Positions 1,768-36,226 of a DNA stretch of 53,915 bases are shown piece after piece (the first letter of the stretch is position 1; every line of letters begins with the position of its first letter). The stretch lies in the IMG/VR virus record IMGVR_UViG_3300035702_000343, positions 1-53,915 of that record. One strand, given 5' to 3'. A program made the position numbers and the translations under genes. This DNA is from a virus. The notes under the pieces were generated by a model. The model was not told where the DNA came from. It did no database searches and worked only from the letters and a program-made list of their open reading frames with translations.

Positions 1768-4254
1768 TTATGATAGATTATTTACAACTTTAGGACGCCC
1801 AGTAACGATGATTTCTCCCTTTATACTACAATCATTATTAGGGTCTGAGGAATCCGGATCTCATGCATCAATGACAAGTTTTCTAGTTCCGTCCGAAAGT
1901 ATACTTATTGGCAAGTCTGTAGCCTGTATAATTGTTTCTTCTTGGAAAGAGGGAACTTCTAACATAACTGCACTACTCTCTACTCCTTTTTGGTATACCC
2001 TAATTATACCCGGGTCTACTTGTGTGGCCCCCGTTACTGCATGGGGTATAAACTCAAGCTTTGTCACAATATAGTCTGCATCTATAGCAGACTCAAATAT
2101 TTTCCTATCTTGTTTAGATACCCCTGTTCTTAAGATCGTGGTAGTCGTTAGGCCAGTTGTATCATCAATAGTAACTTTATGTGTCCCTGTATTAGTATAA
2201 TCTCATGCCCTTGATATATGATAATCAGAGCCTACAACTGGGTCTCCGCCTCCGTCTAGAGCCGTTACTGTTCTTCCTCTAAGGAAATCTTGTCCAACAT
2301 ACATCTGAGTACCTGTCTGATCTTTATAAATAATATCTGCGTTGGTTCCAGTTATAGTAGAGATTTCAATGTCTATTACTTCAATATCTACTTCGGTATT
2401 CGCCAAAACGTTATCTGTGGGATAAATTCCTCCTCCCCCAGAAGTGACTTCCTTTATAATAGGATCGCTAACCGGGTAACCGTTCTGTAAAGCTCTTACC
2501 GCTACGGAAAATTTAGTAGGTTTACCAGAAGAGATATGAAGTGTCCTAGTTTGAATGACTTGTCTCTCTATTTGATCTGTATCTAAATTATCGAAGCTAG
2601 TAGAATTCAAATCTACTTGTGATGAATAAAGTATTTCGAAAGAGTGGGCTGAGTTAGGGAGATCTCCCGCATCTCTCCACCCTGATATTTGTACACTAAA
2701 CCCCTGTGCGTCTGCCGATGCTGTAAAAGCTCCAAGGGTGGAAATAGGTGGTAAAGCATTTTCAAATAAGGAGTCGTAGTTAACGACAGCTTGCCCACCA
2801 GATGAGTGATCAGGATCATAAGATCCAGCCTGCATCGTTTTAATAGCACTAAGGCTTCCTAAATTAAGGGCTTGTATAGAAACGGTATAACTCTCATCTA
2901 GAGTTAATTTCATTGTAAAGCTCGGATTTAACCTAAAAGCTTTATTTAATCTTTGTACAAAGCTATAGCCCTCATTAGAGTCTACTTGTAATAAATACTC
3001 ATTTACGTTGTCATCTATTATCCTGGCAGATGTTGATGGTGTAGTATCATCCTCTGATGAAGGATCTCCCTCTACTGTAAGTTCTACTTTATCTGCTGTA
3101 CTCCCTGTCCCTACCGCTGTGATTTTATAGGAATTTGTAGTCTCGGTAAAATATAAATTTTTGCCAACTACATCACCAGAATTAAAAGTAAAGGTTTCAT
3201 TATCATAACTTAGCTCTGAAACTTCAACGGTTGTAGAGGTTATAGTGTCTACAGCTAGCGCGTCATAATTTCATTTAAATGACACTAAACTATTCTTTTC
3301 CTCATGATTTGGACTAGGGGTAATATCATATATTCTTAAATTTGATGGTGTTGTTAAAGACCCATCTCCCGTAACCGCCGGCTTTCCATCTATGTAAAAA
3401 ACAGATGCTGTAGTACCTTGTAAATTAGTACTCTGCTCATTCCCAGATGTAAATGTTAAGGTATCTAAATTTAGTGTGGCTGTCGTAATCTCTGAATCAG
3501 AAACTCCGCTAACCGGTAATAAGGTTCTAAAACCTACACCACCATTAAAATCTACTTTCCCTGAAACCCCGTTATTTCCTGAGTTATCTCTGTCTTTAAA
3601 GAAAAATGCACCTTCATCAAATATACTGGTCGACAATAATAACCTGGTATCCTTTCTCAAGTCAGCTACCCGATAATCCCCTGACGTAGTAGTGTCATAA
3701 GATGATAGTCCCGCTGCAGAGGCATCAAAAGTTCCGGTAGAGTCCCATACAGCAGCCACTATAATTTGATCTGTAGATAGCGAACTCTTAACTGCTGCTA
3801 GATCTGTTGTAATCTCTTGTAAACTTACTGATACAGAGTCTGAGAAAACGGTCTTTCTGTTCAGGGACTCCGACCCGAGCTTGTCAAATACAAAAGCATT
3901 TACAGCTTTAACTGGGTCACTCCCTGCCTCTGCATAAGTAAGCTTGACGGCGTACCCTTTATTTGCATTAGAGGTTACTAGGTTGTCTGTGGTCAAAGAA
4001 CTTGTAATGTTTATATAGTTGCCTGCCGTTGTTAAGGCCTTACCCGAAGCTACACTTACTGTAGCATTTGAAGATATGAGCGTAGTTTCAAACTCTGGAC
4101 CCACTAGACCATTTGATATAGCAACATTTAGCCCCATAGATCCAAAGATCTCAGAAACTCTCTTCTTTAGGTTTGAAAAAGCTTTTGTTTGTACGCTATC
4201 TACTAAGTTCTCGAAATTTATTTGTGACCCATTGGGTGCTTTTATTCTATCCAT
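1768..4254 (-). CDS. Virion / baseplate-associated protein with fibronectin type III-like domain
   Basis: This is one 828-residue gene after reading TGA at 3271, 2203 and 1861 as Trp; it ends at TAA 1768. It starts MDRIKAPNGSQINFENLVDS. The middle contains a likely FN3 sandwich (GFSVQISGW, AHSFEILYSSQ, KFSVAVRALQNGYPVSDP). The rest is beta-rich and threonine/serine-rich. It lies between the J-like/FN3 baseplate genes and the fibre gene and is cotranscribed with them, so a baseplate-periphery or fibre-attachment role is likely. No enzymatic motif is visible and I do not recognise a named family for the N-terminal 250 residues. Confidence 0.6.
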
Positions 4255-29593: not shown

Positions 29594-32250
29594 ATGAAAT
29601 TAAATAAAGCAAGTAGCATTCTAAGTGACATAACAGTACACATGAAATACGCACGTTACTTAGATGACAAAAACCGGCGAGAGATATGGGATGAGCTCGT
29701 TGACAGAAACGTGGAAATGCACGTTAAAAAATATCCCAAATTAAAAGAAGAAATAAATGATGTTTACGACAGATTTGTAAGAACAAAGGTGGTCCTCCCC
29801 TCGATGAGATCGATGCAGTTTGGTGGAAAGCCTATCGAAATTAGCCCTAATCGGGTTTACAATTGTGCTTATTTGCCTGCGGATCACATAGATTCTTTTG
29901 CAGAAACTATGTTCCTTTTGCTGGGTGGCACAGGAGTTGGGTACTCTGTACAAAAACACCATGTAGAAAAGCTGCCTAAAATTATTCATCCGGATAGTGA
30001 TAGAACCAGGCGATACTTAATTGGTGATTCAATCGAGGGTTGGGCAGATGCAGTTAAGATCCTATTCAAAGCATACACCGGTATAAACCGAAGTAAGCCT
30101 GTATTTGATTACAGTGATATACGTCCTAAAGGGGCTAGACTAGTTACTTCTGGTGGTAAAGCTCCCGGTCCGGCGCCTTTAAGAGAATGTCTGGTTAAGG
30201 TTGAAAATATCCTTTCCAACAAACCTAACCGTAGTAAGCTTCAACCGATTGAGGTACATGATATCATGTGCCATATAGCTGACGCAGTTCTAGCAGGCGG
30301 TATACGAAGAGCTGCTATGATTTCTCTATTCTCTGCGGACGATGACGAGATGTTATCTGCAAAGAGTGGTAGCTGGTGGGAGAATAACCCACAACGTGGT
30401 AGAGCTAATAACTCCGCAGTGTTGATGAGAGACAGACTGACTAAAGATTACTTTATGTCAATCTGGAAACGAGTAGAAGACAGTGGCTCAGGAGAGCCTG
30501 GAATATACCTTTCCAATCATCGTGATTGGGGAACAAATCCGTTGACCTATGCATAATGCGGATTTAAAACCTTCTCTGATCGACTTGGAAGCCGGCAATA
30601 CGGCGACAGGGGGCAAGCAAGGGTCAGAAGATTCTGTGCAGCCTGAGAGACTGAGCGAGAAGGGCGACTACAGTGTTTATTGGATACACACCAATAAACA
30701 CAAGGATATTTATTGTGAAGGTTATGTTGGCATCACTATAGACACAAAGTCTAGAATGAGATCGCATAAAAAGAACAAGAAAAAATCACCAATTGTTGAC
30801 GCTATAAAATCTTATAGTTGGGAAAACCTAGAGATAGAAATTATAGAAGAAGAGTTGACAATGGAGCGGGCTTTAGAGATAGAGGGGAATTACAGGCCTA
30901 GGTTAAATATAGGCTGGAATCTTCAAAAAGGTGGAGAGCTTGGAGTAACGTCTGACTGGTATAATAACCCAGTAAACAAAGAAGCGCACTCTAAGGCTAC
31001 ATCTATTGGAACTAAAGCTGGCATCCAAGAAAAAGATAGTACAGAGGAAAGATCTAAAAGAGCTAAAAACAGTTGGTTAAAGAATGCCGATAGTTATAAA
31101 GGCAGTTGTAGAGGATCTAAAAATGGTAAAGCAAGATTAAATGAAGAACAAGTATTTGAAATTCGTTTTAAGCTTATACCAGAAGGCCTCAGTAATAAAG
31201 AGATAGCAAAAGACTTTAATGTAAAGCCTTACGTTATCCAATTTATTCGTACTGGCAAAACTTGGAAACATGTCGTATGCGACAGTCCAGCGCACAAGTA
31301 GGTATTTTGCTATAACCTTACAGTGTGACGGTTGTGAGATAGGATTAAGGCCCTATCAATTTTGTAATCTTGTTGAGATGAATGCTAACATTCTCGAGAC
31401 GCAAGAAGAATTAGACGAAGCTGCTAAGGCTGGAGCTTTTATAGCTACGCTGCAGGCAGGGTATACAGACTTCCACTATCTACGTGATGTATGGAAGCGA
31501 ACTACCGAGAAAGACGCATTAATTGGAGTATCTATGACAGGTATCGCTAGTGGTAACGTTATGAGTCTTGACATGGCTCAGACAGCTAAAGCTGTTAAAG
31601 CGACCAATGCTGAGATTGCTGAGATTATTGGTATTAAGAAAGCCGCTCGAACTACATGTGTCAAACCTGCTGGAACAACTAGCCTTGTATTAGGAACTAG
31701 TTCTGGTATTCACGCATGGCACAATGATTACTATGTTCGTAGAATGCGTGTTGGTAAGAATGAAGCTATATATACTTACTTAAGTATTAGACATCCGGAA
31801 CTTATTGAAGACGAGCATTTCAGGCCACATGATACTGCTGTGATTTCTGTACCACAGAAAGCACCTGAAGGCGCTATTCTAAGAACTGAGTCCCCATTAG
31901 AAACCTTGGAAAGAGTTAAAAAGGTTAGCCAGAGCTGGATATCTACTGGATACCGAACAGGGCAAAATGGTCATAATGTTTCCTGTACTATTTCACTGAA
32001 AGATGATCAGTGGAGAGACGTAGGTAACTGGATGTGGAAAAATCGGGAGCATTACAATGGAATTGCTGTGCTTCCTTATGATGGTGGTAATTATAAACAG
32101 GCTCCTTTTGAGGACTGTTCTAAAGAAACTTATGAGGCTATGTTAGAGTCCCTTGATAAAGTTGACCTTACACAGGTAATAGAATCCCAAGATGAGACTG
32201 ATCTTAGTGGAGAGATTGCTTGCGGGGGAGGGGCCTGCGAAGTAGTTTAA
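29594..32250 (+). CDS. nrdJ: Class II (B12-dependent) ribonucleotide reductase, intron-split
   Basis: The gene has two exons, 29594-30542 and 31331-32250, joined in frame to 622 residues. Exon 1 holds the substrate-binding and N-terminal barrel (LPSMRSMQFGG, VYNCAYLPADH, GGTGVGYSVQ). The splice falls inside the catalytic loop and restores DWGTNPCCEIGLRPYQFCN, the expected NrdJ active-site signature. Exon 2 has the PAGTTSLVLGTSSGIHAWHN loop and a C-terminal redox pair CGGGAC. The enzyme converts ribonucleotides to deoxyribonucleotides using adenosylcobalamin, so it works without a small subunit or oxygen. Placement after polA and dUTPase fits DNA precursor supply. Confidence 0.9.
30543..31330 (+). 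mobile_element. Group I intron in nrdJ
   Basis: The 788-base intron boundaries are set by several agreeing signals. Exon 1 ends ...AAATCCGT, which pairs with GCGGATTT (30558-30565) to form P1 with the required U-G at the splice site. The intron ends in G (31330). A P7 candidate pairs GACTG (30649) with CAGTC (31283). Ligation restores the exact NPCCEI codons. A GIY-YIG endonuclease ORF fills the loop between the two P7 strands. Confidence 0.8.
30549..31301 (+). CDS. GIY-YIG homing endonuclease (intron-encoded)
   Basis: The ORF is 250 residues. The first 40 are read through the intron core and may not be translated; a downstream start cannot be ruled out. The GIY-YIG module begins at about residue 41 (YSVYWIHTNK, CEGYVGITIDTKSRMRSHKK), with a downstream Glu (ALEIEGNYRPRLN). 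The C-terminal part has a NUMOD-like DNA-binding segment (SRGSKNGKARL) and helix-turn-helix (LSNKEIAKDFNVKPYVIQFI). It should promote spread of the intron into intronless nrdJ. Confidence 0.8.
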   Translation: MHNADLKPSLIDLEAGNTATGGKQGSEDSVQPERLSEKGDYSVYWIHTNKHKDIYCEGYVGITIDTKSRMRSHKKNKKKSPIVDAIKSYSWENLEIEIIEEELTMERALEIEGNYRPRLNIGWNLQKGGELGVTSDWYNNPVNKEAHSKATSIGTKAGIQEKDSTEERSKRAKNSWLKNADSYKGSCRGSKNGKARLNEEQVFEIRFKLIPEGLSNKEIAKDFNVKPYVIQFIRTGKTWKHVVCDSPAHK

Positions 32251-33507: not shown

Positions 33508-33930
33508 ATGTTTACACTTATTTCATACTCCGACGCCGGTTATTCTTTGATCCACCAATCAGGAGATTTCCAGGAACTAGAGAACATTCAACAAGATCCT
33601 AGTATCTTAAATTTGGATGGTCTTTTATTGAACGATAACCTTCTTTCTTTAGGTGGCATTTGTGGATCCCTATCAATGGGAGACGGGGATGACTTTGAAG
33701 ATGTTACAGGGTTCGAGGAAAACTCTCATCTTTTTATTTTAGATCAGGAATTTATTGAGTATCTAAAATCTTGCGAAGAGGACTCTGAGGATCTAGAGCT
33801 TTGTGAGATGTTAATGACTCAGTATCCTGACCCTCATATGTTGAAAGATACGCTCCACTGTAATATAGCTGCATGACAGCATGTATTATCTTTAACCCTG
33901 ACTCAGATGAGTCAAGGTTGCACAGGATAG
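33508..33930 (+). CDS. Acidic hypothetical protein, end uncertain
   Basis: The ORF runs 122 residues to TGA 33874-33876. With TGA as Trp it continues 17 more residues to TAG 33930. It is strongly acidic (GDGDDFEDVTGFEEN, SCEEDSEDLELCEMLM). The TGA overlaps the NAD kinase ATG as ATGA, the arrangement normally seen when TGA is a true stop, so this is the one gene in the window where TGA might still terminate. The added residues (QHVLSLTLTQMSQGCTG) are not obviously protein-like. Function unknown; it is coupled to the NAD kinase. Confidence 0.5.
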
Positions 33931-34727
33931 AAACCGTACTAAGTCTTTTATATTTCAGGGTTGATGCTATTGCATTGGCCCCGGAGTATAAAATTAGAGA
34001 AGACTTTTTAGGTGGTAAAGCTTTTATTGCAAAAGACGAACAACACGCATTAGTGAATTCTGATGTGGTTATTTGCTTAGGAGGTGATGGCACAGTTATC
34101 TATACTGTCCATATGTTAGCAAAATATGATTTGCTGAATAAACCGGTTATATCAATAAATTTGGGTAACGTTGGTTTTATATGTCCATTTTCTTACGAGG
34201 ATGTTCTTAAAGGACTTGATATGGACATGGATATACAAGAGCGTAGCCTTCTTGAATTAAAGACAGGGGCAGCTAGACAACCAACCGCTTTAAATGAAAT
34301 CTATATAGGGAAACCTGATATAGAAACAACTGTTCTGACTTTTAAAATATCTTTTAATGACCAAGTAGCTACATTTAGAGGAGATGGTGTAATACTAGCC
34401 ACATCTACAGGGTCTACTGCATACAATTTTTCTATGGGAGGTCCTATAATTTCCCCAGAAAGAGGAGCTAATCTCGTGTGCATAACTCCTACTGGTTGTA
34501 TAGATGCTAGTGTTAAGCCTATAGTCATGAAATTAGACCCACTGAATTCTTTGACTATAGAAACCTCAGAAGAATCTTGTGTCCAATGTGACTCAAGAAC
34601 TATAGGATATTCAAAAAACCACGAGGTGGAAGCCTCACTTGAGAGTCTCTTTCTTAAAACTCCTAAGAGTTTTAATTATTTTGACCTGCTTGAAAAAAAG
34701 TTAGGTTGGGGTAGGCTTTCTAAGTAA
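33873..34727 (+). CDS. nadK: NAD kinase
   Basis: This 284-residue protein has the diagnostic motifs of NAD kinase: GGDGT (70-74), INLGNVGFICPF, LNEIYIG and DGVILATSTGSTAYNFSMGGPIISP (the NAD-binding loop), and ITPTGC. It phosphorylates NAD to NADP, raising NADPH supply. The N-terminus ACIIFNPDSDES fits the family, so ATG 33873 is a good start. NAD kinase is uncommon in phages; it may support thioredoxin-dependent ribonucleotide reduction or shift NAD pools away from NAD-consuming defence. It is encoded with TGG-only Trp. Confidence 0.9.
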   Translation: MTACIIFNPDSDESRLHRIETVLSLLYFRVDAIALAPEYKIREDFLGGKAFIAKDEQHALVNSDVVICLGGDGTVIYTVHMLAKYDLLNKPVISINLGNVGFICPFSYEDVLKGLDMDMDIQERSLLELKTGAARQPTALNEIYIGKPDIETTVLTFKISFNDQVATFRGDGVILATSTGSTAYNFSMGGPIISPERGANLVCITPTGCIDASVKPIVMKLDPLNSLTIETSEESCVQCDSRTIGYSKNHEVEASLESLFLKTPKSFNYFDLLEKKLGWGRLSK

Positions 34728-34798: not shown

Positions 34799-34871
34799 GG
34801 GCCTATAACTCAGATGGCAGAGTACCAGCCTTTTAAGTTGGGAGTCGCAGGTTCGATCCCTGCTGGGCCCA
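34799..34871 (+). tRNA. tRNA-Lys (anticodon UUU)
   Basis: The cloverleaf is complete: acceptor GGGCCTA/TGGGCCC, D arm ACTC..GAGT, anticodon stem CCAGC/GTTGG with loop CTTTTAA, T arm GCAGG-TTCGATC-CCTGC, discriminator A at 34871. The CCA end is not encoded. It decodes AAA/AAG, which are frequent in this AT-rich, Lys-rich genome. It lies between nadK and the tmRNA. Confidence 0.95.
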
Positions 34872-34960
34872 CACCCGTTAGGGGTTATGTCTTCTGCCGT
34901 GGCACTTAATGAGCGTTACGACGTCATTAACTTGCCAAGCTTATAAAAATTTTATACCTT

Positions 34961-34979: not shown

Positions 34980-35153
34980 TGAGGAACACATACAGCATTT
35001 TTAATCAAGCAAATGATAGAAAACAGTGTTCCGATGACGCAACTTGGGGGTGTTCTGGATTCGACTGCTCACAAAAAGTTAAAACTACAATCTGGCTCGT
35101 AGACTACTACCAAACAGTTAAATTGAACTGACAAAAATCAATCACCTAAAATA

Positions 35154-35201
35154 GCTGGCTTTATTGGCTCAGCTAAGACTCAACCAGCAATAGCTGCGTA
35201 A
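35154..35201 (+). CDS. tmRNA tag peptide AGFIGSAKTQPAIAA
   Basis: Reading from resume codon GCT 35154 to TAA 35201 gives a 15-residue tag ending AIAA, close to the usual ALAA proteolysis end. The stretch AAAATA before the resume codon fits known sites. The tag is unlike the short GE-NNYALAA-type tags I know from Bacteroidota, so the phage would mark proteins differently. The exact resume codon is inferred. Confidence 0.65.
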   Translation, partial: AGFIGSAKTQPAIAA

Positions 35202-35398
35202 AGTTCGTTCTACCTGATGATAATAGGGATAGTAAACTTAGGTTTACAGAGCGTCATAATTATCAGAACAGGTGTGGTGACCTTAAACACTCTCAGATAG
35301 TATAGCTTACCGACTGCCACTGAGTAAACAAAAGGCTAAAATAGCAAAATGATTGTACAATAGTTTTAATGGATGTGCTGTAGGACCGGAGTTCGACT

Positions 35399-36135
35399 CA
35401 AAGGGTCACTATATAGGTAACTATATAGATAAAAATTGGATGAATTGCTGGAAGGCTAAGTATTTATATAAGTATATGCTAATCAGCAGCGAAGTCGTGA
35501 GTACACTCACGAAACGTTCAGAGACTACTGGAGAACTTTAGAGTTCTTAATTACCAGCTAGAGCGTCCAACTCCTCGCTAAGAGGATGATGATATAGTCC
35601 GTAATCTCTCGGAAACGGGAGGCAAATCAGAAAGTTTACCACGATCAGCTAATCTATGATGATTAGGGCACAAAACTGTTAAGTTTTTTAGTGAGTTATT
35701 ACCTCCTTCTTTTCTAGGAGTTATATGATGGATATCACATTGATCTTCATTCCAACCGCATATAAAACATGACAGGTTTTTGTCTGTGCTAATTTTCAAG
35801 GCTTTATAAACCTTTCGCTGAATACGTGGACGCTGATTTGATAATTTATTATTTCTGTAATGCCTTGATTTGCATTTACCAGAACAGAACTTTGCATTGT
35901 GTGCTTTTGTAGTAAATTTATTTTTACAAACTACACAATCCTTTATTACTGTTTTTCTGCCGTCATTTCTATTTTTTGCCGCGCAGCTTCTGGAACAAAA
36001 TTTAGCATTACCTCTATTAAGCTCCTTTATAGGAGCCAAAAAATTACTGCCACACCAATCACAAATTGTTGTTTTATGTTTCATAAGATAATATATAAAC
36101 GGTGGGCATGAGAAACAAATAAATTATAACATTAG
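35399..36135 (+). mobile_element. Group I intron in tmRNA T-arm, with antisense HNH gene
   Basis: The intron is 737 bases. P1 is GACT (exon, 35395-35398) with GGTC (35404-35407), giving a U-G pair at the splice site. P7 strands are GACTA in TTCAGAGACTAC (near 35520) and TAGTC in GATATAGTCC (35591-35600), both close to the phage group I consensus. The last base is G and ligation restores a perfect 5-bp T stem. It sits exactly between the T loop and the 3' strand of the T stem, so unspliced RNA cannot fold its tRNA-like domain. Confidence 0.85.
35578..36084 (-). CDS. HNH endonuclease, antisense within tmRNA intron
   Basis: This 168-residue protein has two Cys-rich zinc modules (CDWCGSNF, CSRSC; CVVCKNKF, CSGKC) and a C-terminal HNH nuclease (CFICGWNEDQCDIHHITPRK, NLTVLCPNHHRLAD). 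It reads on the strand opposite to the intron RNA, and its last codons lie antisense to the P7 region. A leftward promoter-like TATATTATCTT lies before the ATG. The likely role is homing into intronless tmRNA genes. Confidence 0.8.
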   Translation of the reverse strand: MKHKTTICDWCGSNFLAPIKELNRGNAKFCSRSCAAKNRNDGRKTVIKDCVVCKNKFTTKAHNAKFCSGKCKSRHYRNNKLSNQRPRIQRKVYKALKISTDKNLSCFICGWNEDQCDIHHITPRKEGGNNSLKNLTVLCPNHHRLADRGKLSDLPPVSERLRTISSSS

Positions 36136-36189
36136 CTCCGCACCTCCACCACACGGTTAAGTGTAACCCAAGTTGTAGATTGCATGTTT

Positions 36190-36226
36190 AAAGGGAGCCT
36201 CTTTATTGAGGTTCCCTTTTTTTATT
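36190..36226 (+). terminator. tmRNA terminator
   Basis: AGGGAGCCTC-tttatt-GAGGTTCCCT followed by TTTTTTATTT, 39 bases after the tmRNA CCA. Confidence 0.9.

Follow-up and report, generated by a model that had tools for sequence, protein, structure and literature searches.

What a 737-base interruption is doing in the T-loop of a phage tmRNA gene, and whether the phage could still obtain a complete tRNA-like domain from that gene, is the question raised by this locus. The window, by which we mean the whole stretch of DNA analysed, is the 53,915-base virus record IMGVR_UViG_3300035702_000343 (IMG/VR); its genes for a tail sheath, a family A DNA polymerase and a helicase agree with the phage origin put forward in an earlier note on this DNA. 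The description of the phage as recoded in the same note found no support, as the 29 long open reading frames picked for inspection (translation table 11), which stop at TAA (21), TGA (7) and TAG (1), give no sign of a changed code. The window also has a phage NAD kinase-like gene (33873-34727) and encodes a protein (29594-30556) that contains the insertion domain of B12-dependent ribonucleotide reductase.

The tmRNA gene occupies positions 35046-36151 on the plus strand in the standard order, preceded by a tRNA-Lys gene (34799-34872) and followed by a terminator-like stem-loop with a T run (36190-36219, plus strand), which is a weak feature, one being found against a mean of 1.2 in shuffled sequence. 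The 5' exon (35046-35398) contains the 5' acceptor strand, the mRNA-like part, the 5' T strand and the T-loop. The acceptor strand GGGGGTG (35046-35052) pairs with CACCTCC (36141-36147) over seven base pairs, including G3-U70, the pair that in tmRNA directs charging with alanine. The tag frame (35154-35201), read from the sequence as GCT...GCG followed by TAA, encodes AGFIGSAKTQPAIAA, its first codon being assigned from a similar AGFIG frame in a second viral contig (L005, below), and it ends, as expected of a tmRNA, in small hydrophobic residues ahead of the stop. The 5' T strand CGGAG (35387-35391) is followed by the T-loop TTCGACT (35392-35398), while the 3' exon (36136-36151) consists of the 3' T strand CTCCG (36136-36140), the 3' acceptor strand, A36148 and an encoded CCA (36149-36151). 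The acceptor stem, CCA end, tag frame and T-arm recognised in the earlier note are therefore all confirmed, as is its observation that the T stem forms only without the intervening 737 bases: CGGAG adjoins its partner CTCCG solely when 35399-36135 is taken out, whereupon the tRNA-like domain is complete.

The interruption has the properties of a group I intron. The Rfam model RF00028 matches the plus strand at 35383-35622 with 88.4 bits (cut-off, 50; E value, 2.6e-21) over its full length (positions 1 to 253), so that the catalytic core with P7 is represented, and the predicted intron (35399-36135, plus strand), inserted after T-loop nucleotide 7, is exactly 737 nt long and ends in G. P1 is formed by GACUC (35395-35399) and GGGUC (35403-35407), with U35398 at the 5' splice site paired to G35404; in both the window and L005 one P1 pair is absent (C-A). 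The U-G pair, the terminal G and the length agree with the junction 35398/36136 proposed earlier, at which the tmRNA precursor would be expected to splice.

Covariance models, named in the earlier note as a check, were applied to the host gene as well. The Rfam tmRNA model RF00023 scored 36 bits on the interrupted gene, below its cut-off of 47 (E value, 1.8e-12); the match (35054-35400) runs to the T-loop and then drops the 3' strand, as an interruption at that place predicts. On the L005 gene, which has a near-identical intron, the same model reached 52.6 bits, above the cut-off. ARAGORN called no tmRNA in the window gene, either from the unspliced or from the spliced string. SmpB was not found in the 53,915-base window, itself a fragment, or in eight other records, most of which are also fragments.

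Within the intron, as the earlier note had stated, lies an endonuclease gene (35578-36084, minus strand), antisense to the intron and encoding an HNH homing endonuclease of 168 amino acids, identified by Pfam HNH (PF01844; 30.9 bits against a cut-off of 21.4; E value, 2.9e-7) and by phrog_1271 (3.1e-23). The HNH motif is intact, D117, H119, H120, N141 and H143 being invariant in an alignment of six members that has 42 invariant columns. The C-terminal residues RTISSS are encoded on the strand opposite the 3' strand of P7, and the protein and the ribozyme thus share DNA; the RTISSS ending recurs in the other HNH members, in the variant forms WTISSP in L013 and RTISSP in L158. Only 5 of 24 HNH relatives from a scan of viral contigs adjoin a group I core, which indicates that the family is not tied to the tmRNA site. 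By its sequence, the window protein would be expected to cut an intron-free target and so to support homing.

An indication of mobility comes from L005, a 21.7-kb viral contig in which a different tmRNA gene is interrupted at the same base by an intron of 737 nt. The two introns are identical at 735 of 737 positions, while the aligned tmRNA 5' exons share 50.8% identity (20 shuffles: mean, 45.6%; maximum, 52.9%) and the flanks 48 to 50%. One T-stem pair, whose two bases are separated by the intron, shows a compensated change, being A-U in the window and G-C in L005. Given such identity of the introns, the simplest account would be that the entire intron was recently transferred between phage tmRNA genes that are unrelated to each other. 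L005 has a second open reading frame with HNH-like motifs, noted by eye (3575-4015), which ends 6 bases before the 5' end of its tmRNA. A sister contig, L003, is identical to the window over 35001-36190; the spacer between tRNA-Lys and tmRNA is about 490 bases in L003 (12289-12774) against 50 unaligned bases in the window (34888-34937). No intron-free sister of the window tmRNA was found among the seven loci returned by a scan for the AGFIG tag, of which L005 and the sister contig (L028) were real and the other five were chance matches.

Further genes were sought with sequence patterns, blast and HNH-profile searches, and at least 22 viral-contig or phage genes, including that of the window, were found in which a group I intron interrupts the tmRNA T-loop; the sister contig, the cr4_1-like locus L022 and L010, whose splice sites are unsettled, are not part of this count. 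The arrangement, which the earlier note had called unusual, fairly deserves that word and is not unique, since there are at least 21 further T-loop introns on viral contigs, 11 of them with an endonuclease. Altogether 12 of the genes carry an endonuclease open reading frame, antisense in every case, and the remaining 10 have short introns. The endonuclease is of the HNH type in 10 of the 12 and of the LAGLIDADG type in L017 and L042, as typed with Pfam for the window, L004 and L017 and by alignment or motif for the others. Half of the endonuclease-bearing genes are in standard order (window, L005, L004, L016/L175, L017 and L042) and half are permuted (L008 cr4_1, L009 cr118_1, L013 cr1_1, L035 cr55_1, L015 and L158). 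Their introns measure 669 nt in L042, 703 to 766 nt in ten genes and, by subtraction, 838 nt in L175. RF00028 was above the cut-off in all 11 endonuclease-bearing loci scanned (all but L042); the cores of L009 and L017 were absent from scans at gathering score and were recovered in a later RF00028 scan. Among the standard-order endonuclease-bearing genes, RF00023 exceeded its cut-off in L005 only, with 36 bits in the window, 34.8 in L017 and 24.5 in L016; at the limits used it gave no match in L004 and L042, the tmRNA identity of which consequently rests on the acceptor stem, T-arm and tag as read by hand.

The ten short introns fall into two sets. Those of L074, L085, L087 and L091 (contigs of 57 to 330 kb) are 236 to 257 nt long, leaving no room for an endonuclease, and lie in T-loops of tmRNA genes that match RF00023 above the cut-off (84 to 103 bits). 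A near-uniform group of six loci (L038, L069, L105, L119, L142 and L149) has introns of 222 to 223 nt, inserted, as read, after loop nucleotide 2; this group may be bacterial DNA, five of its records being only 4 to 10 kb long. With regard to the yield of the searches, a T-loop/P4 pattern gave four loci, two of which (L006 and L007) had neither an Rfam intron nor a tmRNA at gathering score. A P1-anchored pattern gave five viral loci, all five read as tmRNA introns, plus seven genome contigs, with L019, L020, L021 and L023 being chance matches. A motif screen, which 13 of 14 known positives passed, was applied to 115 other loci with a looser pattern (among the matches listed); 16 passed, comprising L042, L074, L085, L087, L091 and the six-locus group, all tmRNA T-loop introns on reading by hand, L137, which is another group I intron by motif, and L046, L054, L092 and L109, which look like chance. 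The phage group I introns L011 (in psbA by annotation), L012 and L014 have no tmRNA context. A tree of the intron cores was set aside, its key nodes being weak.

Several neighbouring observations stand apart from this set. In L010 (LR756501, a 735-kb phage; 2128-2720) a weak tmRNA match of 21.1 bits abuts a 96.1-bit group I intron, and the locus was excluded from all counts because no firm assignment of its splice sites was reached. The cr4_1-like tmRNA-intron region of L022 (MSGT01000071) is on a contig of 100 kb that is assigned to a Sphaerochaeta metagenome-assembled genome (MAG) and is perhaps misbinned phage. The viral contigs L169 (tmRNA at 3586-3972), L171 and L172 have uninterrupted tmRNAs with the 24-residue tag AKTAKYKGHISARVSLVEETASVA near HNH genes.

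The structure predicted for the joined exons was examined in 14 distinct rows (13 viral, 1 bacterial), from which L024, L035, L022, L091 and L003 were left out as repeats, L010 as unsettled, and the six-locus group and L074 also. The 12 pairs of the acceptor and T stems are formed in every cell, and 8 of the 12 show two-sided changes. Over all 17 pairs, 99.2% of cells are paired, compared with 43 to 55% when slid by one to three columns. Because pairing was among the criteria by which rows were recognised, the paired percentage is inflated, the two-sided changes being less affected. The observed covariation score was reached in 0 of 500 shuffles, the count of two-sided pairs in 1 of 500 and the count of pair types in 18 of 500. 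G3-U70 occurs in all 14 rows, as does the splice-site U-G pair, its U being loop base 7 in 11 rows and base 6 in L013, L085 and L042, and exon base 6 co-varies with its intron partner (C-G, U-A, A-U, U-G).

The same kind of intron is found in genes of a different layout. In L008 (2505-3390), L009 (2507-3320), L013 (2418-3250), L035, L015 and L158 the 3' tRNA piece lies upstream of the 5' piece, as in permuted tmRNA genes, and each combines this order with a group I intron and an antisense HNH gene. The first four belong to Crassvirales, and no tmRNA is annotated in the stretches of cr4_1, cr118_1, cr1_1 and cr55_1 examined; L015 (first 8000 of 11005 bases) and L158 are left unclassified, as their best-listed DNA matches among phage records, to crAss-like phages or Dulem virus 42, cover at most 18% of the query. 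Four relatives are intron-free and have an unbroken T-arm. In crAss-like cr10_1, cr50_1 and cr52_1 the tmRNA is annotated, and ARAGORN calls it as permuted; their tags include GNTSYVTDYTRLVA. The Bohxovirus relative has neither annotation nor call and scores 70.6 bits with the permuted-tmRNA model RF04321. This model was above the cut-off in three of the four intron-free relatives (41.3 bits in the fourth) and in none of the six intron-bearing permuted records, cr118_1 giving 21 bits at the place; likewise, ARAGORN called a permuted tmRNA in three of four intron-free relatives versus no tmRNA in the four intron-bearing crAss-like loci. The joined exons of cr1_1 read GAGGGTTCGATTCCCTC, as in cr50_1, and the tag of intron-bearing cr4_1 reads GNTSYVMDYTRLAA.

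The gene anatomy, the ribozyme core and its boundaries, the covariation across the intron and the conserved endonuclease, together with the almost identical introns of two unrelated tmRNA genes and the intron-free relatives of the crAss-like genes, point to a phage tmRNA T-loop invaded by a mobile, selfish group I intron that removes itself and homes by means of its antisense HNH endonuclease, and we hold this explanation with high confidence. The sequence of events would be as follows: (i) the precursor RNA folds the ribozyme, and the 737 nt after U35398 are removed in a two-step reaction initiated by guanosine; (ii) joining of the exons produces an intact tRNA-like domain; (iii) the rebuilt domain, by virtue of G3-U70, would be aminoacylated with alanine and act with host SmpB in trans-translation; and (iv) the HNH protein would cut the same T-loop in tmRNA genes that lack the intron, and repair would copy the intron in. 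For such a selfish element, splicing would render the insertion harmless and homing would allow its spread among co-infecting phages.

The same features could be read in other ways. It follows from the structure that unspliced RNA, in which the strands of the T stem and the acceptor stem are not neighbours, would be inactive, and the earlier note had taken this to mean that splicing could regulate ribosome rescue, the phage timing it to one stage of infection; riboswitch control has been proposed for one published tmRNA of a marine phage, according to the available part of PMC9004378. We consider such a switch highly unlikely, as no riboswitch family is present in the region at Rfam gathering score, and as the 735/737-identical intron in two unrelated tmRNA genes and the intron-free crAss-like relatives suggest a mobile element that can be dispensed with, not a tuned switch; a regulatory role of splicing is possible, with nothing here calling for one. 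The low Rfam score, the ARAGORN miss and the failure to find a phage SmpB in the window fragment would also suit a tmRNA pseudogene in decay that simply harbours the intron. This is highly unlikely in view of the fully paired acceptor and T stems with their compensatory changes, the presence of G3-U70 throughout the 14 rows, the open tag frame and the identity of the gene in L003. The latter contig is perhaps from the same sample as the window and hence may not be an independent witness against an assembly chimaera that joined the intron wrongly to the tmRNA; it shares the junctions yet differs just upstream, and the same design with other introns occurs in other phage records, so that a chimaera is scarcely credible.

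Beyond the window, we are inclined, with a good deal less assurance than for the self-removing intron itself, towards a general picture in which a phage-borne set of homing introns of group I, each with an antisense endonuclease, has specialised on the tmRNA T-loop and enters both standard and permuted genes. In the permuted cases a working tmRNA would then depend both on self-splicing and on removal of the permuted spacer, two RNA processing steps unrelated to each other. The introns may also be weapons in competition between phages, in that they would cut the tmRNA gene of a rival without an intron.

Introns of bacterial tmRNA genes are well documented. A 2025 survey (PMC11915505), which cites Williams 2002 as the first report of group I introns in bacterial tmRNA genes, covers, in its available part, 97,179 tmRNAs, 79 from phages, and 883 with an intron; it describes no tmRNA intron above 700 bp, and 36 with an endonuclease gene, LAGLIDADG alone being named. 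A 287-nt bacterial tmRNA intron is cited as self-splicing in the accessible portion of PMC2729099. The bacterial introns, as far as the survey text at hand describes them, resemble that of the window in being of group I, in the T-loop, with U at -1 and a terminal G, and differ from it in that the latter is in a phage, is 737 nt long and has an antisense HNH gene. The window site, after loop nucleotide 7, corresponds by our inferred numbering to 'position 8' of the survey, reported in that text from Saprospiraceae only. Two bacterial tmRNA introns, L024 (Saprospiraceae) and L018 (Bacteroidia MAG), share the insertion site and P1 design of the window, with cores 60% and 63% identical to it, and differ in their lengths of 334 and 253 nt and in having no ATG open reading frame longer than 62 codons.

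On the phage side, PMC9004378 reports, in its main text, tmRNA in 402 of 18,146 phages, with 133 unique genes, 53 of them in two pieces; these genes, including permuted ones, are phage-carried like that of the window, and the word intron does not occur in that main text. The group I introns of crAss-like phages (PMC7886860) are likewise accompanied by endonucleases, but reside, in the text at hand, in protein genes, and the main text does not mention tmRNA; the word is also absent from the available text of PMC12386605 and PMC10136315. We found no paper on phage tmRNA introns in the openly accessible literature, the supplementary intron lists of PMC11915505 lying outside the search, and the phage setting, the antisense HNH gene, the length and the permuted hosts appear to be new within the literature searched. 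The most surprising part is the permuted gene with an intron, a form absent from the classes given in the accessible text of the survey, namely standard, permuted and intron, with no combined class.

To conclude, since ARAGORN and, for several genes, Rfam miss intron-bearing tmRNA, current counts of phage tmRNA genes may be too low. The pair formed by the window and L005 appears to record homing in nature from one tmRNA gene to another, unrelated one, and the crAss-like phages of the gut add a permuted-plus-intron form to the known tmRNA gene forms. Phages as carriers of tmRNA introns offer a possible route by which these introns have entered many bacterial phyla.
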